From Symbiotaphrina buchneri (Eukaryota > Ascomycota > Symbiotaphrinales > Symbiotaphrinaceae), in NCBI GenBank assembly GCA_001599915.1, contig BCIG01000049.1, positions 1-23,784 on the forward strand: 23,784 nucleotides of DNA. Direction: 5' to 3'. The position numbers and the translations under genes were made by a program. The notes under the pieces are model-generated. The model was not told where the DNA came from. It worked only from the letters and a program-made list of their open reading frames with translations, and did no database searches. Positions 1 through 23,784 of the stretch are shown here, piece after piece. Position 1 is the first letter of the stretch, and each line of letters starts with the position of its first letter.

Positions 1-142
1 ACCATTTCTTGGTTGCAGAGGGTTTGCTTTCTGCGATTTGCTCATGTTGCTGGAGGAGATTGATCGATAGCCAGCTGACAAGCAGGACAGTAGCTACCCC
101 GATGCCGACGGTGGCTCGCGAATAATGTCGAAGTGGCACCAT
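1..142 (-). CDS. N-terminus of a type II membrane protein (partial, cut by window edge)
   Basis: The reverse strand from 142 reads MVPLRHYSRATVGIGVATVL and on for 47 residues before the window ends. A short basic N-terminus is followed by one hydrophobic stretch at about residues 11-30 (TVGIGVATVLLVSWLSINLL) and then a polar Gln/Glu/Ser/Lys-rich stem. That is the signal-anchor layout of Golgi type II enzymes and other single-pass proteins. The catalytic part is outside the window, so the family is unknown. The neighbouring sugar transporter and glycosyltransferases make another glycosylation enzyme a reasonable guess, but this is inference only. The start was chosen because it is the ATG directly preceding the anchor. 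A non-coding stretch of about 1.2 kb lies upstream. Confidence 0.55.
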   Translation of the reverse strand, partial: MVPLRHYSRATVGIGVATVLLVSWLSINLLQQHEQIAESKPSATKKW

Positions 143-1331
143 CGTCGGTAATGCGAGCGAGGCGGGTTGAGCGACCCTGAAGCAACGAATTGAGGTTTCT
201 CTTTTTTTTTTACCTGACGAAGACACTGGGGCTCAGCCAGAGACATGGAGAGCGAGGTATACATTATGCGAAAGGCTGCATACCGTCAGGTTGTATGTCT
301 TGTAAAGCATACGGTAAAGCTGTCTTGTGTTTCTGAAGGCAGCAGGTAAAGGTACGAAGTCCACCATCGGGGATTTTCGACCATCTGGGCAGCCGGCTCC
401 GTGGTCCCTGGTTCTTGAGAAATCCAAAGTGGCTGCTTCCAGCCGCTCTTCAGCTGTGGATAGTTCCTCGCTGGCACTTTCCAAGCACGATGTCGTACTA
501 CCCAGACGCGAGCCTCCGTGCCCGTACAGAAGTTGTGCCCCACGCGACCACTTGCCTAGGAGAGAGTTACGCAAAGTACCTGGATCTTCGCTCTGCCGTC
601 CAGCATTCAGTGGCTGACGCCAAGCAGAAAGTTAAACGGAGACTTGAAATCTCCCTGTCTGGACTGTAATCGACCAGCAGGTGGCTGTATTGGCGTTCGC
701 CGGTCTCATCTGGATTGAAGCAGAAGATTGTGGACAAGCAGCTTCCAGAGCGGAAGCCACATTTTGATTGTTCCTGTCGGGATACGGGGAAGACCACCGG
801 CAAGCAGGCGTCCGAGACATGCTTAGCACCTTTCCCCTTGGCTCTCGCTACAAGCATACAGGGGTAGCGTACCTTCCACACCTTAGTCCCGAATGGAAAG
901 TATGGAGTAAGCTTTAGTCTTGAACCTAGATTGATTGACGGTTCCTTTTCCTCGAACGGTCGGTGGGTCATAGCGCGCGCATTTACACCACACCGAGGCT
1001 TCTGGCAAGCCCAGCCCTCAGCTGGAGCAGAACATCCTCTCGATATCATTACAGGTTACAGGAATCAATACAGTATCATGATGACACAAGAATGAGCCGC
1101 AGGCTGGCCCGCTTCAAATCATTAGCGGCTCACGCCTCCTGAGAGGGTTTGAGACTGTTGAGGCTCATACATTCATAATCTGGACAATCGAGCTTTTATC
1201 GTCTTGAGCTTGTCCTCAGCTAGTTAATACAGCGATTGACCCTACATCTACAACAATAGGACCAATTGTTTCATGGAACCAAGCTACATGGATCGGAAGC
1301 ACAGGACTGTAGAAAATAAACGAGTATTCAT
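143..1331. other. Intergenic region, no supported gene
   Basis: This stretch lies between the partial gene's start and the 3' end of the transporter gene, both on the minus strand. It should hold the promoter of the partial gene. Open frames here (for example minus 1049-567) show no recognisable domain, membrane segment or splice structure. A T-run lies near 200-210. I see no repeat or RNA gene. Confidence 0.6.
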
Positions 1332-2550
1332 CTAAAGCTTCAATCTAGTCTCCACAGACCGTTGCACGGAATACCTAAAGACCTTTAGCAAGAGTTCCAT
1401 AACCCACAAAGGACTCACCCACCCAACGATACCCATTATGGCAATACCAGCTCCCAGGATACTCATAGAGTTCACTGAGCGGCCTCCATAGAGCCAACCA
1501 AGCGCAATGATAATGATGGACTTAAGATGCCCTACAACTGTCCCAATAACGGGACCGGCAGAATTTACCATGGCGAACTGTGACAGGTTCACAAGCCCGG
1601 CCAACAACCCGCTCTATCAACCCGGTAATATCAGTGCATGCCTTAAATGGCAAAGTAAGCGAACATACCAGACATATCATGCTCCACTTGCTCAATGGTA
1701 GATGAGACCACTCTGGCAGCTCATCCGTAAAAAGTGATGCACCTGCAATTAGCAAAGCTGCTTGTGGGAGCTGATTATACAGCAACTGCATGCTGTTTAC
1801 CTGCAGCCTCTCGTGATAACGAGTGATCAGGATACCGAAGACGGAGCTGACCAGCACGCCAAAGAACGCAAAGAAGACGCCCAGACCCGTCGTGGGGTTT
1901 GCAACCGCCGAGGATTCCCCATCGAAATACACCACCATCGCCACACCCACACAAGAAGGCACCAACGCTAGGACCGACCTGCCAGACAGCCGTGCCCCGT
2001 AGAGCGCGAAGTTGAGCACCGCCGTGACGGGCGTCAGCAGGATGCGCACGATCTGGTGGAAGATGATCGATGAGAATGCGAGAGAGAGGTTCTGCAACAC
2101 CGTACTTGCGCCCATGGTCAAGGCGAGCGGGATCGCGGCGCCCAAAGGTGCGCGCTTGGGCTGAAAGAGCCCGATGCCCGGCCGCGAAGCCACGTACAGC
2201 GAAAGGAAACTGACGCAGAAGTGGAAGGCGGCAAAGGTCGACTGGCTCTGCCGGAACGAGTGGTCGTCAAATATCACTTTGTTGACGTAGACCTGGGCGC
2301 ACCGCGGGTTTGGTCAGAAGAAGAGCGCGGAATCATGGACTGTATGGATGATGCGACGTACGATGGAGACTGTAGAGAGAATATTCAGGGTGATCCATAG
2401 ACGGGCACCACGTCCACGCTTAGCATTCTCCCCGAGATGTGGCACGAAGCCCTTTTCAATGTCTTTGTCGGGCCTCTCTAGTACGTTTTTAGAGATGTCA
2501 ATAAGCTTCGATGGTTTCTTGACGGGAGCCGTCAATGCAGAAGTTGGCAA
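1332..2550 (-). CDS. Nucleotide-sugar / triose-phosphate transporter family protein (DMT superfamily, SLC35-like)
   Basis: Three exons are read: 2550-2362, 2292-1669 and 1613-1332, with introns of 69 and 55 nt (GTACGT..CAG and GTATGT..TAG). The joins restore family sequence: LNILSTVSI joins VYVNKVIFDDHSF, and MICL joins SGLLAGLVNLSQF. The protein is about 364 aa, normal for the family. Visible hallmarks are NKVIF after the first membrane helix, FAAFHFCVSFLSLY, the QNLSLAFSSIIFHQIVRILL stretch, and a C-terminal GHLKSIIIIALGWLYGGRSV. The residues after the first 45 are largely hydrophobic helices, about ten. The family exchanges nucleotide sugars or phosphorylated sugars across Golgi or ER membranes; the substrate cannot be read from sequence. 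An extra 36-nt GTGAGT..AAG segment near 1419-1384 could be a third intron; removing it keeps the frame. The GT34 and GT8 neighbours fit a role as lumenal sugar-donor supplier. Confidence 0.88.
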
Positions 2551-3657
2551 GGAGTTGAAATTGGATCGTCAGCCAGACGAATAGGGGATGATAATGAAGG
2601 CTGACAAGTTTGGTGAGAACCACGACATCTTCTTTCGATAGGCAGGTGACTTTGAAAGATCAATGCTGCTTATTGTTGGTGTAAAGAGAGATGCTGGGGC
2701 GGAACAAGTGACTGAGATATCGATTTATTTCCGGCACCACTATCTCCAAGCGCCAGAGGGGGTTTCGCCCGTCACAATTAATTACGCAACGGTCATCACC
2801 ATTTCGATTTCTTTGCCTTTACAGAACAGCATAACACGACTCCCGCAGGGTTGATCGGAGGTACAGCACTTTACTCGGTATGGACATACGGTCCGACTCG
2901 AGCTTCTTAGCGGGAACTGAGATGGTGTATCTTCAATCCTCGAGATACGCCATGGAATTCAAGGCAATGGGCTGGCATCACGGGCCGAGAAAGTTTGTGC
3001 CCAAGTCTTTGTAGAACAGCTATCCTGCGCTCATCTGAACCAGCTCGGCTGAGAACACGGTAAGCTACGAGCGCTCAGATATCTAGGGAATCCATCTGAA
3101 AGAACCGTCTGGAGGAACCCTGTTGGGACGCCAAGGATGGGCGTCAACTTCTTTTTCCCAGTTTAGCTCAGGGGGAAGCAAGAGGGTGGCTCGGTTCTAT
3201 GGCATGGCGTGGCATCTTGGAGACGAGCTCGCTGCTTTTGTTGCCTGCCAAGCTGTTCTCAATGATCTGCCGTCTTCCACCCTAAGAATGAACTTGTTGC
3301 GCTGGGCGTTTTACACTGCAACAGACCGCCGCTTTCTATGCGGACTCGTTTAGGCAACATAATCTAGAAGTCACAGGGCTGATGGTGTGAGTGCCCAGAC
3401 TAATCAATGTCTGAGGTGCTCTTCTCAGCCGTGTTGTGGACCTGTGGCGGTCATTGTGAACTACCTTAGCCATCAACGGGCGACGAGATGTAGCCCAGCT
3501 ATCAGCGCCCTGTTTCGAACCCAGTCCATCTCTGTGCTGCTCTTCGCACTCGATGGGGAGGACTTCTGTCACCCTTGGCAGGTCTGTTGGTGTCAGTCCT
3601 GGGTGGGTAGACAGCACCAGGAGGATCTCGTAACCTGCCCGCCTTTACTACGCAAGA
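2551..3657. other. Divergent intergenic region between transporter and GT34 genes
   Basis: About 1.1 kb separates two genes that point away from each other, so it probably carries both promoters. Small open frames on the plus strand (2663-2854, 3123-3353) lack domains or splice context and I do not call them. I see no repeats or RNA genes. Confidence 0.55.
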
Positions 3658-4956
3658 ATGCATGTCTTCAGTCGGTCGACGGACAGGTATCCATCCAGCC
3701 ATGCCAGTGAATCAGGCAGTTCATGGCTATCGGGATCGTGGACACTGCAACGCAAACACAAGAAAAGGCTGCATCGATTCGGGTTCGTCCTGGCAATATG
3801 TCTTGTGTGGGCATATCGCCTCCGAAACATCCTGCCGTCCTCGTCGTCGCCCGACATGATCATGGCCGCGCTGAAGCACTCCTGGTCGCCAGAGATCCGC
3901 GACGGCCTCTCTCAAGAAGTCCTCACTGCACCAACTCAACCAGCTGCTCCCATGGCTGAAGAAGAGGCCTCCTCCTCTGCCCCTAGTGACGACGACCAAG
4001 CGTCTTCTCCAGACCCTGCCCCGAACACACTAGTCGACGGGCGGCGAAGCGCTCGCATTGGCAAAGTCACAATGCTATTCGGCGAGCCAAATCCCATCTA
4101 CGAGCGCGCGCTGGCCCTGCACGAGGTACACAATGCGCGGATGGGGTACCGAATGTTCGTACTGCGCGAGCAGATCCTCTCCGGCTTATGGTCGAAGCTC
4201 GCGTACCTGAGCGCGCTGGTGGCGAATGAGCTTTCGAAACCTCAAGACGAGCGATTGGAGTGGCCCTTGTAGGGCACATCTGTCCCTGTTTCCCAGTCAG
4301 GGGGCTCCGCATTCTAATCTCATTCATACTGTAGATGGCATGACGCCGACGTCGTCATCATGAACCCCAACGTGCCGCTGGAGGTGTTCCTCCCGCCGCC
4401 GGAATTCGATCATATACACCTGCTGTTGACCGATGACCACAACGGGCCACATGACGGCGTGTTCCTGCTGCGCGTCTGCGAATGGTCCTACCGGCTGCTG
4501 GCGGCCGCAGTCTCGCTACACTATTTCAGGCCCGACGTCGTCCTCAAATACAGCGAGCAGTCGGCGCTTGAGATCCTGACCCACGAAGAGGTGCGTATAA
4601 CATGTCCAGTCCATTCTTATCCTGGCCGGAAAGAGCCCCAATGCTGAAACAGAACCTCCCTCCAATAATAGGGCCGATTCAATCATTCATCCGTTCACGT
4701 CCCGCAACGCTGGTTCAATGCCTTTTGTCCTAGGACGCTGGATGCGAATAACTACCGGCCGCATCACGCACGCCCCGGCAGCTTGCTAATTCACTTTGCA
4801 GGCAATAGGGACGGGCATCGGCTGGAGCGCATGCAGAGCTGGCTAGATCGCGCCGAGGCCCACACGCCCGAGTGGGAACTGCCACTGGAGGAGACGGAGT
4901 ATGTGAGTGAGGTTAGGAAGTTCTGGGCGAGCAAGACAAAAGATGCTGCTACATAG
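3658..4956 (+). CDS. GT34 family galactosyl/mannosyltransferase (GMA12/MNN10-like)
   Basis: Three exons are read: 3658-4268, 4335-4590 and 4672-4956, with introns of 66 and 81 nt. They give about 383 aa. A short N-terminus leads into a signal anchor (about residues 40-55, FGFVLAICLVWAYRL), then an acidic Ser/Pro stem, then the GT34 domain. Visible family motifs are RIGKVTMLFGEPNPIYERAL, YRMFVLREQIL, the metal-binding DxD in LWHDADVVIMNPNVPLEVFL (about residues 207-209), DDHNGPHDGVFLLRV, HVPQRWFNAF, LLIHFAGN and a closing W-rich segment. Splicing rebuilds the DxD motif across the first junction. GT34 enzymes are Golgi alpha-galactosyl- or alpha-mannosyltransferases acting on cell-wall and secretory glycans; linkage and acceptor are not readable here. 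The usual NG-N-G loop reads NGPHDGV, a mild variation. It is convergent with the GT8 gene, with 150 nt between them. Confidence 0.92.
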
Positions 4957-5106
4957 GATATAGTGTTTCCGGATGGATCGATAATCATTTATATTTATAA
5001 GTATATATGTTCGGTACTGAGAGTCAAAGACATACTTCTGTTGTAGGGAATAGATATTTGCCAACTCATTCGTTCTATTTACTGTGCAATTACTGCCGCG
5101 TACGTA

Positions 5107-6231
5107 TCACAACAAGCCGCCTGTTTTCTCCCTGGCCGCATCTGCCCCTTCGAAAAACCCTTCCATCTTCCACCTACTCCTGAGCATAATGTCACGCAGC
5201 TCCGGCTCCGGCCCGGCGTCCCAGAACTTCGTATGCAGCGACGCCGCGCCTGCCTTAAAATCTCGAAAAGTGGCCCAATTGACATTCCACGTGGGATCTA
5301 ACTGCTTCCATGGCATGTTTCCGTCACGGCGATGCACATAATTCCAGAGGTTCTGCTCGGGGTACTTGCTGTCGAAGCGGTCCGGCAGCGCCGCCACAGT
5401 CAGGTAGTGGCGGAACAGATCAACGGACGGCTGGAAGAGGACAAAGCCGGCGTTGACTGCACGGCCAGCCCGCGGTGGCCATGGGTGGTCGTAGCCACCC
5501 TGACCCGAGACGCCGGCGAAGACGTACGACGACGGCTGCTGGCCCTCGTCCGCCTTGCGCGCCGCCGTATCGTTGAAGCTGTAGCTTAGCTGGGCGGCGG
5601 GGTCGTCGAAGATGGCGTCCAGGCGTTTGGCGATGAGCATGTCCGAGTCGAGGAATAGTACTCGGTCGTACTGGGTCAGAGTGAACATGTGCAGCTTGGA
5701 CAGCACGCTGTTCCAACGGCTGCGAGAGGCCTGGATCCAGGGGAAGTCGATGCGTGAGATTGGCAATATGGAGGCGCCGTCGAGGGCGAGACGAGCTCTC
5801 TTCTGTTCAGGCACGTCCTCGGTGACCAGGACAAGGAACGGGATGGAGGAATTTGTGCGCGTGATGGGATCATGTAGCAGCTGGTAGGCAAGCATGCGTG
5901 TGGCGGTGAAGTAGTTGTTATCCGTGTCGTCCTGATCGCTGGTAAGAAAGGCAGCATAGGCGTATTTTGACGATGTACGGCGGTTGTGGACTGTATGGAG
6001 CCCAGTGATGGCCCATGTGGCGCCGTCGATGTTGAGGCCCAGTCTTGCTGCAAGCACAATAGTGGCCAGGATTCCAGTTGCCACAACAATGAAGCGCCTC
6101 ATACGAGCATTCAAAACATCCCCGTGAGGCCGAAGACCGCTGTCAACACGACCTTTGGCCATCTTGATGGTCGTGTAGAGTTTGTACGAGGTGAAGCTGG
6201 ATGGATCAAACAGAGTCACCCAAACAACCAA
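5107..6231 (-). CDS. GT8-like nucleotide-diphospho-sugar transferase (type II membrane glycosyltransferase)
   Basis: One uninterrupted frame of 374 aa. Domain marks are SKYAYAAFLTS at the start of the catalytic region, KLHMFTLTQYDRVLFLDSDM with the DxD at residues 195-197, NAGFVLFQPS, EQNLWNYVHRR, DPTWNVNW and a late LHTKFWD. This pattern matches the glycogenin/GT8 fold and fungal GNT1-type enzymes, which use UDP-sugars in the Golgi. The membrane anchor is RRFIVVATGILATIVLAARL at about residues 45-65. Met24 (6162) or Met44 (6102) would give a more typical short cytosolic tail than Met1, so the true start is uncertain. The gene lies tail to tail with the GT34 gene. It is not glycogenin itself, because it has a signal anchor and lacks the long glycogenin C-terminus. 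The donor and acceptor sugars are unknown. Confidence 0.87.
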   Translation of the reverse strand: MVVWVTLFDPSSFTSYKLYTTIKMAKGRVDSGLRPHGDVLNARMRRFIVVATGILATIVLAARLGLNIDGATWAITGLHTVHNRRTSSKYAYAAFLTSDQDDTDNNYFTATRMLAYQLLHDPITRTNSSIPFLVLVTEDVPEQKRARLALDGASILPISRIDFPWIQASRSRWNSVLSKLHMFTLTQYDRVLFLDSDMLIAKRLDAIFDDPAAQLSYSFNDTAARKADEGQQPSSYVFAGVSGQGGYDHPWPPRAGRAVNAGFVLFQPSVDLFRHYLTVAALPDRFDSKYPEQNLWNYVHRRDGNMPWKQLDPTWNVNWATFRDFKAGAASLHTKFWDAGPEPELRDIMLRSRWKMEGFFEGADAAREKTGGLL

Positions 6232-7500
6232 GAATCCTAGTGGACGTAGGACCTTCCCAGGTGTCTGGCGAGGACCTGGAAGCTCGATCTGAACGAGCAG
6301 CTGAGACAGACACTTGTAATCCTTATTGGCTCATCTGCGAAAGTCCACCATGAAGTGGCGGCTCCAAACGTGTCCTAGAACTCTCTGCCTCTCCACATCG
6401 GTCTTTCAGCTGTGCGTCCGAGAGCGGTGTCTATCGGACTTTGCCCCAATAAGGGAATTGGCCCTTGTTAGCTGTCCAGTGCAGCGGTCTGTGTCGGTTG
6501 GTCAGTACTTGCACAGGTCCAAAGTGCCGTCGGCTGAACAGAGATGTATCCAAAGCAAGCAAGAGCTCCTTCTGAACACGGCTGCGCTAAATTAAAGCTT
6601 CCGATACAGCCGTATACGATGTCCAGCCGCTCTACAAGGAACTCCTTGGTTGCCGAAGTAAGTGCCAGTGTCCCAAGTACATCGAGGATATCACGGCTCG
6701 CGAGTTTTGGTGATTAATTGGCTCCCATTCTTCCAAAATGCCACACACCTGCCAAGGCTGTGACTGCCAAAAACGATGGCCGTGGTTGATAGCTGCAGGT
6801 CCGTTCGCCGTTGCAGCTGTCTACTGATCACCAACCCTTCGCCAAGGTTATGTGGCTGCTGCTACTCTTATCAAAGCAAAGTCACACTAACAGTTGTTTA
6901 TCTAGGGTTTAAGCTTTCCTGCCCAGCAGACGTCTGTCTGTGCACCCTTATCTGGACTTTGTAGACTTCTGTTAACGGGGAAGGGTACCGGCCTAGAATC
7001 GGAGAGTTTGCAAAGCCGAAGCTCTACATTTAGTTGACGGCGAGAAGTGTTGTGGGAATAGACTTTACTACTACCAGCCGCTGCCTCCCTATTCGCTGTA
7101 ACACTATCGCCATGTCGTCTCAATGCAGCAGTAAGGTAAGCGATGGCGCCACCAGCCAGACACCAGGTAGGGTCATCTGGTGGGTGCCACACACAGTGAG
7201 ACAGGAGGAACTGGGCCGTTAAGTCTACAAGCAAGTACTCATACTATCACAGTCTCGACTTGCTGGGCATGTGCAAGACAGCATTCCGGATGGGCTTTTC
7301 TTGGAATAGGCAGTGCGCCTCCACGGTACTTTACTCAAATAGGCGTTCGTGGCTTGGGCTAGTTCGGTAAGAACTGGCACTTTGGTCTCGCGGGGCAAGC
7401 GCCATGGCAAGCCCAAGTCGCTTCCAGAGCTAGAAACTACCTCATGGGGGGTGCTGTCGCGTGCTCTCTTTGGACGAGGAAGAGATGGGTGGGTGACTGA
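6232..7500. other. Intergenic region upstream of the GT8-like gene
   Basis: About 1.27 kb lies between the GT8-like gene start and the 3' end of the secreted-protein gene. Several small open frames occur on both strands but none shows a domain, signal peptide or splice structure. It probably holds the GT8-like promoter and the 3' UTR of the next gene. Confidence 0.55.
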
Positions 7501-8878
7501 TTATTGGGGGTTTTTGCGATGCCCCGCTCCCTTCGATATGGTACCTGTGATTGGGACTGGGAAATCTGCGAGTGTGATAAGGGGCATAATAGATTTATGC
7601 TTCCAAGTCGGCTGCGCCGTCTCTTCGGGCTCCTCGCACTCGTTCTCGGCACTTGGGTCCAACCCCGAGCCCGGTGTGCAGACCGAGGCTGTCGTGCTGG
7701 TAGTCTCTTCCTCGGTCTCGGTTGATGTGGTCGTTGTGGTAGTTGTGGCGAGAACGGTCGCGGGCGTGCTAGACGTCGTGGGAGGGATGGTGATGGGGCA
7801 GGGAAGCGTACTGGAGATTTCACGTCAGATACGGGTGGTTGGGCCAGTTGTGGTTATTAGTAGACTCCACTTACGAGCCGCTGATCACGGTTATAGTGAC
7901 ACTTGTTGTGATGGTCACCGTTCTGGTTACCGTCTCGGTGATCCACACCGTACGGGGACAGTTGTACACGGTCGTCGTCACGCAGTAGTCTTCGTAGACT
8001 GTGATTGTGTACACGCCATTGGTCGGTGCCCAGGTATGCGTCGAGTACGTCGCTGTGGTTGTGACCGTTGCAGTCGTGGTCGGTAAAGAAACCCAGGTCT
8101 CAGTATGCGGCACACACTTTCCTTTCAAACACCAGTTGATGCTGACAACTTGCCTGTACGTCGTCACCGCCGGCGCTGCAGGTGGGACAGCTGCGGGCGC
8201 CGGCTTGGGCTTCACGGCTGCGTTGCCCGGTGCTGAGCCTCCTGATGCTGGGCTCGGTGAGGCAGGTGCGATGCCGGCAGCGCACTCTTTGCAGAGTCCG
8301 CTGCCACCGTAGCCGGGGATCAAGAAAGGACCGATGGAGGCATATGGACAGGTGTAGTCTACTTCGTACACGATGACAGTGTACGTCTCTCCCGCCGCTG
8401 GCGAAGGCGCGGCCGGTGCCGGCGGCGTATATGCACCCGGCACCGGTGCAGGGGACACCCCATGAGGAGCGACTCTGGTGATGCTGTAGTTACCATGCCT
8501 GGCGGCGTAGACAGTGGAGGTGGCCAAAGCCGCAGAGAAGGTGACGAGCTGTTCTGTCTTCGTGATGGTACAGGATGTGATTGGTTTCTTGCCCTTCGCA
8601 GTGACATGGCATGGTATGACCGTCGACACCCAGGCGTACGTGGAGTAGGAGTAGTATGGCTTGCATTTACCATGGCCACATGTTGTTGTAGGCGTGCACG
8701 TCGATACGTTCTGGTATTGCTTGGTTACCTTGATCGGAGGTGGTTTCACGCTCTTCGGGCAGGCAGAACAAGGCTCAAACGTCGTGAGCACCTTTTTGGA
8801 TTTGCCAGCAGCGACGCCGTCGAACATGCCAACAAGGCAGAGAAAAAGAAGGAAGTAACGATATGGATGGAGCTCCAT
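7501..8878 (-). CDS. Secreted Thr/Pro/Ala-rich cysteine-containing surface protein (function unknown)
   Basis: Exon 1 is 8878-7875. A 64-nt intron (GTAAGT, branch CTAAT, acceptor CCAG) runs 7874-7811, and exon 2 is 7810-7501. The product is about 437 aa. It begins with a signal peptide (MELHPYRYFLLFLCLVGMFD, cut near VAAG at residue 24-25). Cysteine-bearing blocks alternate with Ala/Pro linkers: CTPTTTCGHGKCKPYYSY; an Ala/Pro linker; DYTCPYASIGPFLIPGYGG followed by SGLCKEC; a second Ala/Pro linker; and VYTITVYEDYC followed by a Thr-rich run. Exon 2 adds a Thr run, an acidic segment with CTPGSG and ECEEPEE, and a tail without a GPI signal. It is low in lysine and rich in potential O-glycosylation sites. 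I recognise no named domain. Among glycosyltransferase genes it could be a glycan carrier or cell-wall protein; that is inference. A further intron near the 3' end (GTACCA at about 7541) cannot be excluded. Confidence 0.75.
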
Positions 8879-10886
8879 GTTTCCAACTCCAGTATCAACT
8901 TTATTGAGAAACGAACGTCAGAGTATTGAAGCGTTCAAGGCAGCGAAGGTTATGACAGGAAGCGAGGCGGCGAGGATGGTTGTGTAAGAGTGATTCCCAT
9001 ATGCTCACAAGAGGCTTCTGATGCTGCGGTCCTTGTCGGTCAGCAATGTAGGAGACGGACCGAATAGGCATCAGTGTATGGGAAACCAAACGGTAGCGCC
9101 TATTTGACGACGCCAATGCCTTCATGAGGTGGGCAGTCCAAAGACCCCGAAGCTGCAACAAGTCCATGCAGGAAGCATACATGGCATACGCGCACAGAGC
9201 GAGAGCCTCCTAGGGTACAGTGCTATCAGCTCATCGTTTCACCTGAGGCGTGATGCCAACCATCGCTAATACACGAAGGCTTGCAATAGCATCGAGCCTT
9301 CGGAGAGCGATACGGATCGGCGATATCTCTCTCCATAGCTTCAGCTCACGATAGAGGTCCGTGACAACAGCGATCTCAGCCGAAAGCTAATGGAAGGCGT
9401 GGGAAACTCAGCGCAGTCACTGACGGTGATTTCGTACTTGGCCAGCTAGTGAAGCCACAGGAAGGCATTGCGGAACCCACGAATGCACTGAGTGGTCATG
9501 GCATTAGGGATTTGCGGTGGCCATTCGAGAATGAGACAGGGAGTAGATGTCGACATGTTGATCTGAGTGGAGACACCAAGATGATTTGTGAGACGCCACG
9601 AACGGCCTGGTCGAAGGTGGAACGAGAGCACACGATCTTGCCGAGCTGAAAAAGTGTCAAACCCAACCTCGCACGGCCGGATCGGCAAACATGAGAACGC
9701 CTCAAGGTCGTTGTGACTGCATCTGGATCCATTTGTCAATTAGTGGTGGTGCGAACGAAAAGGGGTGACAGGAAGCTTGCTGTCCGTAGGAGGGAAAAGA
9801 GAAGACATAAGAAAAAAGTTCACGGGAAATGTCAACAATGAATCTCGCAGTGCTATTGTCTTGGCCACTAATCCTGAACAGGGCATAGAGCATGCGCCGA
9901 TTTCCCCCATCTCGAGTCCAGAACGGTACAAATACGCAGTACTCGTACAACGGGTGTGTAGAGCGAGTACCTGTACTTGACGGACATGTACTCGTACAAA
10001 GCTCCCGTCTCGGCATTATGCTTGTCAAGGCGCAGGCAGCCACATCCCGCTGCTTTTACGACCAAAGCTTTGCTGCTCCCCGTAGAATCAATCATAACTT
10101 TCACATTTTCCCTTGCAAGCCACTAAGCTCTCGGCACTTGAATTAGAAGGAGCTCGCGTGAGCAATACGAGGACTGCGATCAGATCATGGTGTCCAAGAC
10201 CAGCCAAGGCGGACACCCCGCCCTCACTATCAGTCCTAAGCCACTATCTGCCGGGTGTCCATCTTCTTAGTCCACCTGATGTTGACTCGCTATAGTAGGA
10301 TAAAACGCTGCTTCAGCGGAAAAGCCTCCTCGGTTGCTCCAAAAATCCAATCTACCTCCAAGATCAGAGCACTGCACATCACAAGTAGAGTAGCGAAGCC
10401 ACAATGGAACCGAACATGAGCAGAAGGAATTGGTACTGGTTGAGTCCACACATAGCAGATCAAATCACCAATCTCGGCAATCCGGCTTGACCCAGATAGG
10501 AGCGGACTCAACAAAACCAAGAAGCATGTCTCTCTAGCCCGGGAGCATGAGATGCTGCAACAATACGAGAGCTAAAGCCTGCTAGTCTCAAGCCGGGCTT
10601 CATGGTGGATTTCCTCCGGCTCATGGCACGGCAAAAGGTCCGCTGAATGTAAAAGCTTGTTTCTGTTGGACCCTGTTAACCATCAGTTGCAAGTCACCCA
10701 GGCTTGTTGTTGATCGAGTGAGGAAATCGTACAGTATTCTGGCCATGACCCCTGTGCATGCGGCTCCGTGATGCCGACCGGCGTTCGCCAGAGATAGCAT
10801 ACGGCAAATGCTATAGTAGAGACACGATTGACTTGCTACAACACCCACTGAGCGATGTGTCGCGTCATCTCTTAACTTAGATCAAG
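8879..10886. other. Large divergent intergenic region (2 kb), no supported gene
   Basis: This region separates the start of the secreted-protein gene from the start of the Stealth gene. The open frames within it are short and have no recognisable domain or consistent splicing. It is long for an intergenic region in this window and may hold regulatory sequence for both divergent genes. The only internal structure I see is the small repeat pair at 9939-9999. Confidence 0.5.
9939..9999. repeat. Pair of 12-bp direct repeats, each internally repeated
   Basis: GTACTCGTACAA occurs at 9939-9950 and again at 9988-9999, starts 49 nt apart. Each copy contains GTAC twice, and further GTAC copies (GAGTACCTGTACTT) lie between them. 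The pair sits in the divergent region, roughly 0.9 kb upstream of the Stealth gene. A role as a protein-binding site is possible but unproven. Confidence 0.4.
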
Positions 10887-13389
10887 ATGCCAATCCGTGG
10901 TAATCGCTTCTCAAGATCCGAGAAGTCTCATCCTACTCAGCTATCATTACTTGATACCGCTTATACGCCCAAATGGCCACGGACACGACGAAAGCGCGTC
11001 CTACAAGCGATAGCGATGGCGATCCTCCTTGCCTGCTGGAGCACCAAATTACTGCCCTGGCCGCAGCAGAACTCTCGAAACGGTCCATGGTCTGTAGCCT
11101 CGCTGGTAGCGGCCAGGCAGCAGGACTCGAAGACCGACATTGTTGGGATGGAGGTGCCTGATTCTGAGGTTCTAGAGCCTCGAGAGGAACCGCACGGTCC
11201 AGCCAAGATCGAAGAAGACAATTCCATCGTGCCGCCAGCTGCCGAGCGATCTTTTACATCAACGGCACGCCACGAGGAGATTCGACGTCATAGGATACAT
11301 CAGCCGAAAGAAGGACAGCGAGCCTTGCCGGAAACAGCCCGTGAAGCTGATCAAGCTGCTCAAGGCACTATGGAAATGAGCAGTCAGGAAGTGAGCAGCC
11401 AGGAAGTTAGCAGCCAAGAAGTGAACAGCCAAGAAGTGAACAGCCAAAAGGCTGAAAGCCAAGTCGTGCTCTCCTCCATCGCAAGCCACGACGCAATCGA
11501 CGCGGCGCTTGCACATTCACAGGCAGCGTCGACTAGGCCGTACGAGTTTCCCAGCTACGATGACTACATGGCGCTCAGTGAAGCCGCCGAGGCCTTGCCT
11601 GACATCATCCACGTTCCCTTAGAAGAGGCCACCAAGGATACCGTCCTAGCAGGCTGGGAGGACGAGTGGGTTGCTGATGCAGAATTCAATGCTGACAGAT
11701 GGGGGATATTGGAAGAGCCCAAGATTGACTTCGTCTATACGTGTATATTATAAGGATCGCCCTCCCTGCGAGAGCCACTGGCTGATCTCATCATAGGGGT
11801 GAACGGCTCCGAACAGGCATTTCTCGACACGATGCTAGATTACGAGCTCAACTCGACACTGAACGACGGCGACGGCAGCTGGATCCAATCGCACCGCTCG
11901 AACCGCTACCGGGACTGGGACGAGCTTCGGTTCTCGCTCCGGAGCGTCGAATTGCATGCGCCGTCATTCCGCAATCGAATACTGCTGCTGGTCAATGCCG
12001 TGAAGAAGGATCCAGAGTACGGGAGACAGATCCCCGTTTGGCTCAACGACGACGCACAGACGCGTGATGTTGTCCAAGTCCTTTCGCAGGAGGATTTCTT
12101 CGACGACGAGCATAAAGACTGCTTACCCACATTCAACTCGCTGACGATTGAGAACCAGATTTTCAATACCTTCCGATGTAGACAGGGTACGTGTCCTGCA
12201 TCTCTAAAGTCATCATCACACATGTTGTTCTAACGAGACCCAGCTCTTCGCCTTATCGGACGACATGCTCCTCGGGCGTCCGCACGCCGCTTCAGACATA
12301 TACTCACCTCTCTTCGGCCCAACGCTAGGCTTCAAAACCAACGGCTACAACACGATCAACCCGCCCACCGACATCGACGCCCGGCGGTTCGGCGAGAAGC
12401 CGTACCTCATCTACACGTCCTGGCTACTGAACCGACGCTTTGGAAGCCGCAAACGGAAAGGCCAGGTGCACTTTGGCAAATCGCTTTCCCGCAGCGTGAC
12501 ACGCGAAGCCATCAATGCCTTCGCGCGGCCGGCCTTGCGTAGCGCCTGCCAGCGCTTCCGAGGCGAGACGGGCTTCCAGCTGTATTCCTGGTATGCTGCG
12601 TTCCACTACACCATCGAACGCCACCGCGAGGCGCTGCTGTGGAGCTATATCATGCTCCGCGCGGACGTGAACGGCGATGGGAATCTGGACTGGGAGGAGC
12701 GCCAGCAGGTCATGATGGAGTTGACTGAAGGCATGGAGAATGAAGGCAAGACCGCCTTTCGGGAACGGATTTTCTATCAGGTGGGTCCGCTGCATGAGAC
12801 AGCGGGACTCAAGCCACCGAAGGTGAATGTCGACGTGCTATGGACGTCCCTCGACGGGCCCGTGACGATCAAGGATATCGAGTGCTACGAGTTCGACGTC
12901 AATGAATGTCTGGCGCGCGGGTTTTCGACGCCGTACCCGGACATGAGCTTCGCGAGCCCCGTGTTCTCCACGGCGGCCATCCTCGATCGTGCTGCAAGGC
13001 AGGACGTCAAATGCGGCGACTGCCTCATCAAATTGCTGCTGAACCGCGTTCCCAAAGGGCTCTCTCCGTTGCTTCCCCCCGCAGAGACGAAAGCTAAAGC
13101 AAGGCGGACCGTGGTCAAGGCGCTGACGCGCTACCATTATACGGTCGTGGAGCCCGACGCGCTGTTCGTCATGGTCACGGATGCGGAGCAGGTCAAGCAT
13201 ACGTTGGTGAAGAGGCTGGTCAAGGGAGATCGCAAGGTCGGCCAGTTGTGCTTGAACGATGATGTCTCCGAGGATATGGATGAGAAGGATATCAAGAAGG
13301 TGGAGAAGGTCATGTCGGAGTTGTTTGAGGGGCTGTTTCCTCAACCGAGTAGATTTGAGATTGTGTCGGCACCTGGGGAGGAGCAGTAA
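10887..13389 (+). CDS. Stealth-family sugar-phosphate transferase with EF-hand (one frame break in the given sequence)
   Basis: Exons 10887-11742, 11797-12186 and 12244-13389, introns of 54 and 57 nt; about 796 aa. A signal anchor (about residues 37-55) is followed by a Ser/Gln/Glu stem with a five-copy pentapeptide repeat. Stealth regions are clear: CR1 IDFVYTWVNGSEQAF, with the Trp rebuilt by splicing; CR2 RYRDWDELRFSLRSVELHAP, QIPVWLNDD, LPTFNSLTIENQ and LFALSDDM; then CR3/CR4 with an EF-hand loop at 12664-12699 (DVNGDGNLDWEE) and YEFDVNECL. Stealth proteins, including fungal Xpt1 and animal GlcNAc-1-phosphotransferase, transfer sugar-1-phosphates to glycans in the secretory pathway; the sugar is not predictable. 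Exon 2 as read ends in the wrong frame: after IFN(T), the next frame gives PSDVDR, which runs through a consensus donor straight into LFALSDDM. So two bases appear missing, or one extra, at 12165-12172. It could be a sequence error or a recent pseudogene. Confidence 0.85.
11379..11453 (+). repeat. Coding minisatellite: five 15-bp units in the Stealth gene stem
   Basis: Five tandem 15-nt units, starting AGCAGTCAGGAAGTG, encode SSQEV, SSQEV, SSQEV, NSQEV and NSQKA at about residues 165-189. Units differ by one to a few bases, and the last is the most diverged. The unit is a multiple of three, so copy-number change would lengthen or shorten the lumenal stem without altering the frame. Confidence 0.85.
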
Positions 13390-19499: not shown

Positions 19500-20381
19500 T
19501 CACCACATCAACATCCCACCATTAGCACTAACCACCTGTCCGGTACACCAGCTCGCATCCTCCGTACACAACATGCCCACGATTCCCGCAATCTCACTTC
19601 TATACGCCGGCCTCCCGCCCGACGTCTTCGCATCCTCAATCAAATCCGGCGGGTCAATGCCCGGCCTCCCCTGCATCAACGGCGTATGCTCAATCCAGCC
19701 CCTCGCCGCATGTTTAAACTCCGCCGTATTCGCCTTATACATCGGTCCCTCGACTGGGCCCGGGTTGATCGCATTGACCGTCGCCCGCTCGCTCAGCTCC
19801 CTTGCCCACGTGCGCGTCATAGCCTCGATGGCAGCCTTGGTGCCGCCGTAGATGCTCTGCCCAACAAAGCCCGTCGACGCCGAGATGGACGATAGGCTGC
19901 ACCGCCTGCACGACCAGCAGCGAGCCGAGGACGTTGACGCGGAACGAGTCTTCGAATTCGGAGACTTTGATGTCGGGGATCTTGTTGTTTAGCGCGATGC
20001 CGGCATTGTTCACTACGATGTCGATCTGGAGCTTGTTGCCGTGATTGTTGCCGAACAGCTTGCGTGTTGCGGCGACGAGGTGCGCGGCGCCTTCGGGGGT
20101 GGAAATGTCTGCTTCGACGCCGACGACGCGGACGTTGTACTTTTGAGAGAGCTGCGTACTCAGCTCAGCGGCTTCGTTGGCTTGTGATGCGGCCGGATAG
20201 TCGAGCACAAGATTGCACCCTTTGCTGGCGAGGTTCTCAGCGATAGCGGCGCCGATTCCTGGAGGTGAGTTTGTTAGTAATCACTAGAGGAGGAGTGGAT
20301 TGACTTGAGAAGCTGACCTCTGGAGCCGCCGGTGACGATTCCTAGCTTTCCTGATAGTGGTCTAGCCTCGCCGACAGCCAT
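19500..20381 (-). pseudogene. Short-chain dehydrogenase/reductase, damaged by an internal deletion and frame break
   Basis: Exon 1 is 20381-20318, a 59-nt intron follows, and exon 2 starts at 20258. The N-terminal half is a good classical SDR: LGIVTGGSRGIGAAIAENLA (the TGxxxGxG cofactor loop, rebuilt by splicing), NLVLDYP, EADIS, VVNNAGIALNN and VNVLGSLLVVQAVQP. The C-terminal half is also good but lies in another frame from 19889: SISASTGFVGQSIYGGTK with catalytic Tyr and Lys, NAINPGPVEGPM and a final CTGQVVSANGG. At about 19890-19896 the expected 13-14 residues, including the RIVNVS strand, are absent, and the two halves are out of frame. The Ser in the catalytic position, 13 residues before the Tyr, is retained at the edge of the gap. 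It would be an NAD(P)-dependent oxidoreductase, possibly a sugar or polyol reductase. As given it should not make an active enzyme. Confidence 0.8.
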
Positions 20382-22841: not shown

Positions 22842-22912
22842 GGAGCAATAGCTCAGTGGTAGAGCATGAGATTGCAGATCTCAGGGTCATGGGTTCGATC
22901 CCCATTTGCTCC
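22842..22912 (+). tRNA. tRNA-Cys (anticodon GCA)
   Basis: The 71-nt sequence folds as a full cloverleaf. The acceptor stem is GGAGCAA with TTGCTCC, the D stem GCTC/GAGC with loop AGTGGTA, the anticodon stem TGAGA/TCTCA with loop TTGCAGA, the variable loop GGGTC, and the T stem ATGGG/CCCAT with loop TTCGATC. Anticodon GCA reads UGC/UGU, so it is cysteine. The internal A box (TAGCTCAGTGG) and B box (GGTTCGATCCC) are intact, and there is no intron. CCA is not encoded, as expected for a eukaryotic nuclear tRNA. Confidence 0.96.
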
Positions 22913-22914
22913 TG

Positions 22915-23220: not shown

Positions 23221-23784
23221 CTATAGCTTACCATCCGGTGCTAGCTCAAATTCAAGGGTACCTGTAAACATCCTGTATTGATGGAACTTTTTGAACGTCA
23301 ACCCTGCCGCTTCTCCGATTCTGCGGATATCGGCAAATGTTCTCTCCTTACCACCCATCAGCGCCATCGTACTTAGCTGCATCATGTGGCAGGTATCCGG
23401 GTATCCTGACTGTGCCGGAGGTAAGTGTTGGGACGCCGGAGCCTGGGCCGATGACTCAGGTGTGATCAGACTGGGAATGATCAGCTCATTGACGAGAACT
23501 TTTGCTTTGCGGTTCTTCCTGAGTGCTGGCTTCAGGCACGCAAGAAGCTTGGCAGAGGTCTCGTCTTCGTAGTCTCGCCTGGGCTTGGTCAGCCTTTGTT
23601 TGTGCAGAAAAGAAGTTGAAGCACGAACACTACTCCACGCAGCCAGTATACGTCTGCCACAGTCTCCTGCGGCGTGAAATAGTGCAGCTCTAGAAGGAGC
23701 ATGACGGGGTCCGGGTTTGGCGGCAGAATCGACGGCCTCGCCGGCGGGGAGCCAATGGGCGGGCCGGACGCGAAGGCGGTGGCC
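23221..23784 (-). CDS. O-methyltransferase (COMT-like), C-terminal part; cut by window edge
   Basis: Two exons are visible: 23784-23634 and 23583-23221, separated by a 50-nt intron (GTAGTG, branch CTGAC, acceptor AAG). The first contains HYFTPQETVADVYWLRG, matching the FFTPQ..ADVYxLR segment of SAM-dependent O-methyltransferases. After the splice comes RRDYEDETSAKLLACLKPAL, equivalent to the catalytic-region HDW-D-E block; the usual His is Arg here. The C-terminus has KVLVNELIIP, then MMQLSTMALMGGKERTFADI, RRIGEAAGLTFKKFHQY and a stop at 23221-23223. The first exon also carries an unusual proline-rich stretch (PPIGSPPARPSILPPNP), and the cofactor-binding part lies outside the window. Such enzymes methylate phenolic or polyketide hydroxyls and often belong to secondary-metabolite clusters; the substrate is unknown. 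The His-to-Arg change and the Pro-rich stretch leave its activity open. Confidence 0.75.
   Translation of the reverse strand, partial: GHRLRVRPAHWLPAGEAVDSAAKPGPRHAPSRAALFHAAGDCGRRILAAWSSVRASTSFLHKQRLTKPRRDYEDETSAKLLACLKPALRKNRKAKVLVNELIIPSLITPESSAQAPASQHLPPAQSGYPDTCHMMQLSTMALMGGKERTFADIRRIGEAAGLTFKKFHQYRMFTGTLEFELAPDGKL

Follow-up and report, generated by a model that had tools for sequence, protein, structure and literature searches.

A possible Golgi glycosylation gene neighbourhood with a frame-broken Stealth gene in Symbiotaphrina buchneri

Do a Stealth-family sugar-1-phosphate transferase gene and the glycosylation-related genes beside it, on a small contig of the ascomycete Symbiotaphrina buchneri, act together on one glycan, or are they neighbours by coincidence? 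The window analysed here is the entire contig BCIG01000049.1 (C49; 23,784 bases) of assembly GCA_001599915.1, which comprises 23.4 Mb in 82 contigs. An earlier note on this DNA had proposed that the genes in positions 1 to 13,389 form one pathway for a phosphosugar-containing extracellular or cell-wall glycan. Our own answer, held tentatively and at somewhat under even confidence, is a Golgi glycosylation gene neighbourhood that would most likely act on one class of glycans of surface or secreted glycoproteins; a joint pathway of the neighbouring glycan genes is plausible.

In this favoured reading, a nucleotide sugar would enter the Golgi through the carrier, mannose-based chains would grow by the action of the GT34 and GT8-like enzymes, and the Stealth enzyme would use a UDP-sugar to place a sugar-1-phosphate on a chain hydroxyl, yielding an acidic phosphodiester, with the secreted Thr-rich protein as a candidate carrier of the glycan. 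We infer the donor, the acceptor, the order of steps, the Golgi placement and the joint action; a working form of the Stealth enzyme is assumed, not seen, because its frame is broken in this assembly. Should the group prove real, its members would be candidates for decorating the surface glycans of ascomycetes with phosphosugars. In the literature searched, which was available in part, the Cryptococcus xylosylphosphotransferase was the sole fungal sugar-1-phosphate transferase to surface under the Stealth family.

The six gene models in positions 1 to 13,389 lie on mixed strands, and four of the five intergenic gaps are about 1 to 2 kb long. Splice trials were made for the carrier and the Stealth gene, and Pfam was searched with exon pieces.

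10887 to 13389 (+): Stealth sugar-1-phosphate transferase gene (Pfam, PDB matches, splice trials)
10887 to 11742 (+): Stealth exon 1, hydrophobic segment and start of CR1
11797 to about 12186 (+): Stealth exon 2, end of CR1 and CR2
about 12244 to 13389 (+): Stealth exon 3, SDD motif, CR3, EF-hand-like loop and CR4
7501 to 8878 (-): secreted Thr/Pro-rich protein, 437 amino acids (intron 7811-7874, spliced model, signal-peptide-like start)
5107 to 6162 (-): GT8-like glycosyltransferase, 351 amino acids, one exon (Pfam below cut-off, glycogenin structures)
3658 to 4956 (+): GT34 (Gma12/Mnn10-type) glycosyltransferase, 383 amino acids (Pfam; introns 4269-4334 and 4591-4671)
1335 to 2473 (-): carrier of the DMT/EamA-TPT type, candidate nucleotide-sugar transporter (splice trials, Pfam, identity to a gene on contig C9, hydrophobic segments)
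1 to 142 (-): type II membrane protein, first 47 residues, cut by the contig end (open frame read from position 142)

A group is suggested by the crowding of transferase and carrier genes beside the Stealth gene. For the estimate of chance, totals of 8,000 or 10,800 genes with 68, 100 or 165 transferase/carrier genes were assumed; under these counts, at least three such genes would be found among the four neighbours of the Stealth gene with P of 2.4e-06 to 1.4e-05, and among the eight genes flanking it with P of 3.3e-05 to 1.9e-04, and crowding by chance is unlikely on the same assumptions. The GT34, GT8-like and Stealth proteins each carry one N-terminal hydrophobic segment, and the secreted protein has a signal-like start.

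The Stealth gene is predicted to encode a eukaryotic Stealth enzyme of the GNPTAB kind. Exons 1 and 2 join cleanly through the intron 11743-11796, and the CR1 motif, which is given as IDVVYTF or similar in the accessible part of PMC10668966, is present as IDFVYTWVNGS spanning that intron; a scan with PF17101 (Stealth_CR1) gave no match in the own genome or in 14 control genomes and was uninformative. Stealth_CR2 was matched in the exon 2 piece 11799-12185 (+) with 49.6 bits (cut-off 39.4; profile positions 1-73 of 108), and Stealth_CR4 in the exon 3 piece 12244-13386 (+) with 37.8 bits (cut-off 27.4), including the CLND motif; CR3 reached 16.3 bits (cut-off 24.2), and the equivalents of His-956 and Arg-986 align with GNPTAB. 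Exon 2 matched the GNPTAB structures 7s6n, 9bgg and 7s05 (best E 1.1e-07), and the best matches of exon 3 were 7dxi (Drosophila) and 9bgg, 7s6n and 7s05 (GNPTAB), with E of 2.2e-06 to 4.5e-05; calmodulin-like kinases came next, starting at E 0.0075. An EF-hand-like loop, DVNGDGNLDWEE, lies in exon 3 between the CR3 and CR4 matches; its Pfam EF-hand_5 match (E 0.034) is below the cut-off. The gene represents the one PF11380 match in the genome, which is a lower bound, and none of the 14 control genomes, all prokaryotes, contained a match. A 15-base tandem repeat of five to six copies was observed at 11372-11463, where the gene encodes the N-terminal part of the protein.

The active-site residues of GNPTAB, as listed in the accessible part of PMC11418123, were mapped by eye onto the HMMER alignments. 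Arg-322, Ser-385 and Glu-389 are kept in exon 2, and His-956, Arg-986, Gln-992 and Asn-1151 in exon 3. The motif NDD (406-408) reads SDD: both aspartates, Asp-407 and Asp-408, are retained, and Ser stands in the position of Asn-406; the alignment of SDD with the Drosophila LNDD was obtained solely in a segment scoring -2.7 bits. AlphaFold predictions without an alignment were too low in confidence for use (mean pLDDT 35.8 for the GT8-like protein and 36.3 for Stealth exon 3).

The GT34 model reads through and predicts a protein with an N-terminal hydrophobic segment and a DAD motif. Its middle exon, 4336-4590 (+), matched Glyco_transf_34 with 27.1 bits (cut-off 23), and with 25.4 bits in the genome scan, whereas its first and last exons gave no GT34 Pfam match. 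The genome scan with PF05637 found three places, on C23, C21 and C49, and a protein search added a further relative on C76 (61% identity over 44 residues); genome profile scans thus miss some genes, because the C76 gene was seen by protein search only. The GT8-like model also reads through, with an N-terminal hydrophobic segment and a DSD motif. It matched glycogenin structures with E of 2.5e-06, and its relatives in the genome are a gene on C10 (40% identity, query 61-346), which exceeds the Glyco_transf_8 cut-off with 24.8 bits, and a weaker one on C8. The PF01501 genome scan at E <= 0.01 matched places on C26, C8 and C10, the window gene not being among them.

The carrier has introns at 2293-2361 and 1614-1668, and its 5' exon is unsure and without a convincing start. 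Five hydrophobic segments lie within one exon and a gene on C9 is 50% identical, features that fit a carrier of the DMT type; that its substrate class is a nucleotide sugar is what we infer. Its two exon pieces matched both Pfam families below their cut-offs (EamA, 14.5 and 24.5 bits, cut-off 28.2; TPT, 15.7 bits, cut-off 30), and the PF03151 genome scan at E <= 0.01 matched four other places. The carrier core matched a single PDB chain, that of a dehydrogenase, at E 0.17. The secreted protein, whose model reads through, consists of 17.8% Thr and 11.2% Pro and contains two N-glycosylation sequons; its first exon, which the scan covered, gave no Pfam match, and at E <= 0.001 the rest of the genome yielded nothing that matched the protein. 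Six proteins gave no match in an NCBIfam search, and none of five open frames in the gaps between the gene models matched a Pfam family.

Much of what the earlier note had read from the DNA could thus be confirmed: the Stealth family membership through CR2 and CR4, the GT34 enzyme through its middle exon, the secreted Thr/Pro-rich protein through its spliced model, composition and signal-peptide-like start, and the left-edge type II membrane protein as a real start of 47 residues from position 142. Its five families are all present within 13.4 kb, but the carrier and the GT8-like gene fall below Pfam cut-offs and the Stealth frame is broken. The GT8-like assignment is upheld by the glycogenin matches and the C10 paralogue and not by the gene's own Pfam score, and for the proposed nucleotide-sugar transporter the DMT-type features stand, while the nucleotide sugar itself goes beyond the family scores.

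Several results weigh against a joint pathway. In this assembly the Stealth reading frame breaks within CR2: in the splice trial with exon 2 in the frame of the CR1 motif (donors 12,131-12,215, acceptors to 12,260, introns of at least 35 bases), none of nine GT-AG candidates between exons 2 and 3 keeps the frame of SDD, CR3 and CR4, and an unbroken Stealth gene could not be confirmed. Three of five GC-AG candidates do keep the frame, two of them from a GCATCT donor and the third by skipping part of CR2; a product ending at the break would be without SDD, the equivalents of His-956 and Arg-986, and CLND. The catalytic NDD motif is absent, with Ser in place of Asn, and His-959 of GNPTAB is Lys; replacement of Asn-406 by Ala abolished the activity of the human enzyme (PMC11418123, accessible part), and the N322A exchange in CpsY lowered activity 200- to 500-fold (PMC10668966, likewise in part). 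The GT8-like gene, at 5110-6162 (-), scores 22.5 bits for Glyco_transf_8, just under the cut-off of 24.3, and the substrate class of the carrier is without any match above a cut-off. The chance estimate is built on assumed counts, and its question was posed with the genes already in view. Shared promoter words in four regions, compared with 60 shuffles, were near chance and all within the shuffle range: 7-mers in four regions, 2 observed against a shuffle mean of 1.9; 8-mers in four regions, 0 against 0.07, and in at least three regions, 5 against 3.6; 9-mers in at least three regions, 1 against 0.33; and 10-mers in at least two regions, 16 against 12.2. The one pathway suggested in the earlier note stands in part, in that the enzyme classes and their probable location in the Golgi are compatible with a common glycan route, but the promoter words and the broken Stealth frame do not speak for it.

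These same promoter words speak for another reading, in which individual Golgi glycosylation genes that serve different glycans are neighbours by chance, a reading that we regard as possible though somewhat doubtful. It agrees also with the mixed strands and the gaps of mostly 1 to 2 kb, with the sugar-catabolism-like set of genes to the right, and with the failure to find such a grouping elsewhere: four paralogue stretches of 8 to 11.9 kb each, on C76, C9, C10 and C8, were read (those on C21, C23, C26, C17, C1, C4 and C12 were left out), and at E <= 1e-4 they contained no relatives of other window genes and no second copy of the group. What it leaves improbable, under the assumed counts, is the presence of three transferase or carrier genes beside the Stealth gene. 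A query with Stealth exon 3 gave 18 pattern matches in the genome contig set and 4 in the viral contig set, none of them confirmed as a relative, and no fungal cluster with a Stealth gene was found in the titles and abstract openings of the top-ranked open-licence papers. Because the window is the whole contig, the proposed cluster ends on the left where the assembly does, and genes are cut at both contig ends.

The frame break itself raises the further explanation of an accessory island in decay, in which a group of genes on a small contig formerly worked and some are now broken. We consider this unlikely. Besides the Stealth gene, it would account for the carrier 5' end without a convincing start, the contig of just 23.8 kb, and a frame change in the gene for a short-chain dehydrogenase/reductase (SDR) at 19.5-20.3 kb. 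Breaks were observed off the contig as well, where they equally fit assembly errors, and the GT34, GT8-like and secreted gene models of the window read through. In the SDR gene (19503-20280), 11 positions (adh_short) or 6 positions (adh_short_C2) are missing at the frame change; the C76 GT34 gene (5512-7294 of the fetched stretch) has a frame change within its conserved part, and in the C10 GT8-like gene (5001-6269 of the fetched stretch) a TGA interrupts the frame within an alignment that is free of gaps. The occurrence of breaks on a 786-kb contig, that of the C10 gene, as well as on small contigs suggests assembly errors at least as much as it does gene decay, and the C76 and C10 breaks hint at base-level assembly errors. 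We dropped the idea that the frame break is proof of a dead gene, given comparable breaks in other genes of this assembly.

The donor of the favoured neighbourhood may be compared with known systems. A Cryptococcus-type pathway, with UDP-xylose imported by the carrier and the Stealth enzyme as a xylosylphosphotransferase, appears very improbable. It has in its favour that the review PMC7729866, in its accessible part, cites the Cryptococcus xylosylphosphotransferase as a fungal activity of the Stealth family, and that PF03721 (UDP-glucose dehydrogenase family) was matched on C27 (136.8 bits) and C28 (55.3 bits). Against it, the exact sequence CYDEGKR, which we take to be the UDP-xylose synthase signature, was absent from the genome, in a search that would overlook a variant or a copy split by an intron, and no like pattern was present in the loci retrieved, for 10 of the 16 places with a PF16363 match; a UDP-xylose donor is unlikely because no such signature was found. 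One of the PF16363 matches, at C26:104965-105870 (196.2 bits), presumably resembles nucleotide-sugar 4,6-dehydratases. UDP-GlcNAc or a UDP-hexose as Stealth donor is a guess. A more specific form of the pathway, i.e. a dedicated ascomycete set that places a sugar-1-phosphate (phosphodiester) glycan on the co-encoded secreted Thr-rich protein, by means of a Stealth active site of the SDD variant and a donor that is not UDP-xylose, seems improbable.

Among GNPTAB-type GlcNAc-1-phosphotransferases (human, zebrafish, Drosophila), the likeness lies in CR2, CR4 and most of the mapped active-site residues, and the EF-hand-like loop aligns with that of Drosophila 7dxi. The window protein differs in SDD for NDD, in the Lys that replaces His-959 (the fly enzyme has Phe; PMC11418123, in the part consulted), in its 15-base tandem repeat, and in that no Notch or DMAP match was among the Pfam results of its Stealth pieces. 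The Cryptococcus xylosylphosphotransferase, whose gene is presumably Xpt1, is a further possible parallel: it is a fungal sugar-1-phosphate transferase acting on mannose chains and, in the partly available sources, cited under the Stealth family. No UDP-xylose synthase signature was found in the window genome. Xylose phosphate occurs on Cryptococcus N-glycan mannoses (PMC9859814), and the gene for this step was not yet identified in 2020 (PMC7218283), both as stated in the accessible parts of these papers. CpsY of Mycobacterium tuberculosis shares the Stealth domain and matches exon 2 (E 0.0015); it is bacterial, a weaker match than GNPTAB, and absent from the exon 3 matches. The galactosaminogalactan cluster of Aspergillus and Metarhizium, as described in partly available sources, is a precedent for a clustered extracellular-glycan pathway of five genes in filamentous fungi. 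To our knowledge, that cluster includes no Stealth, GT34 or GT8 gene.

In the right half of the contig (14271-22413), genes for a Fungal_trans_2 regulator, a sugar MFS transporter and the SDR lie on the minus strand, and one for a zinc alcohol dehydrogenase, whose N-terminus we take to resemble L-arabinitol 4-dehydrogenase, lies on the plus strand; together they probably serve sugar or polyol catabolism and are distinct from the glycan genes. The Fungal_trans_2 gene and the introns mark the DNA as fungal. A tRNA-Cys (GCA) gene was found at 22842-22913. The C-terminal part of an O-methyltransferase-like gene (Pfam, 16.4 bits against 22.3) occupies 23224-23784, where it is cut by the right contig end; its frame stays open when an intron of 50 bases is placed at 23579-23628.

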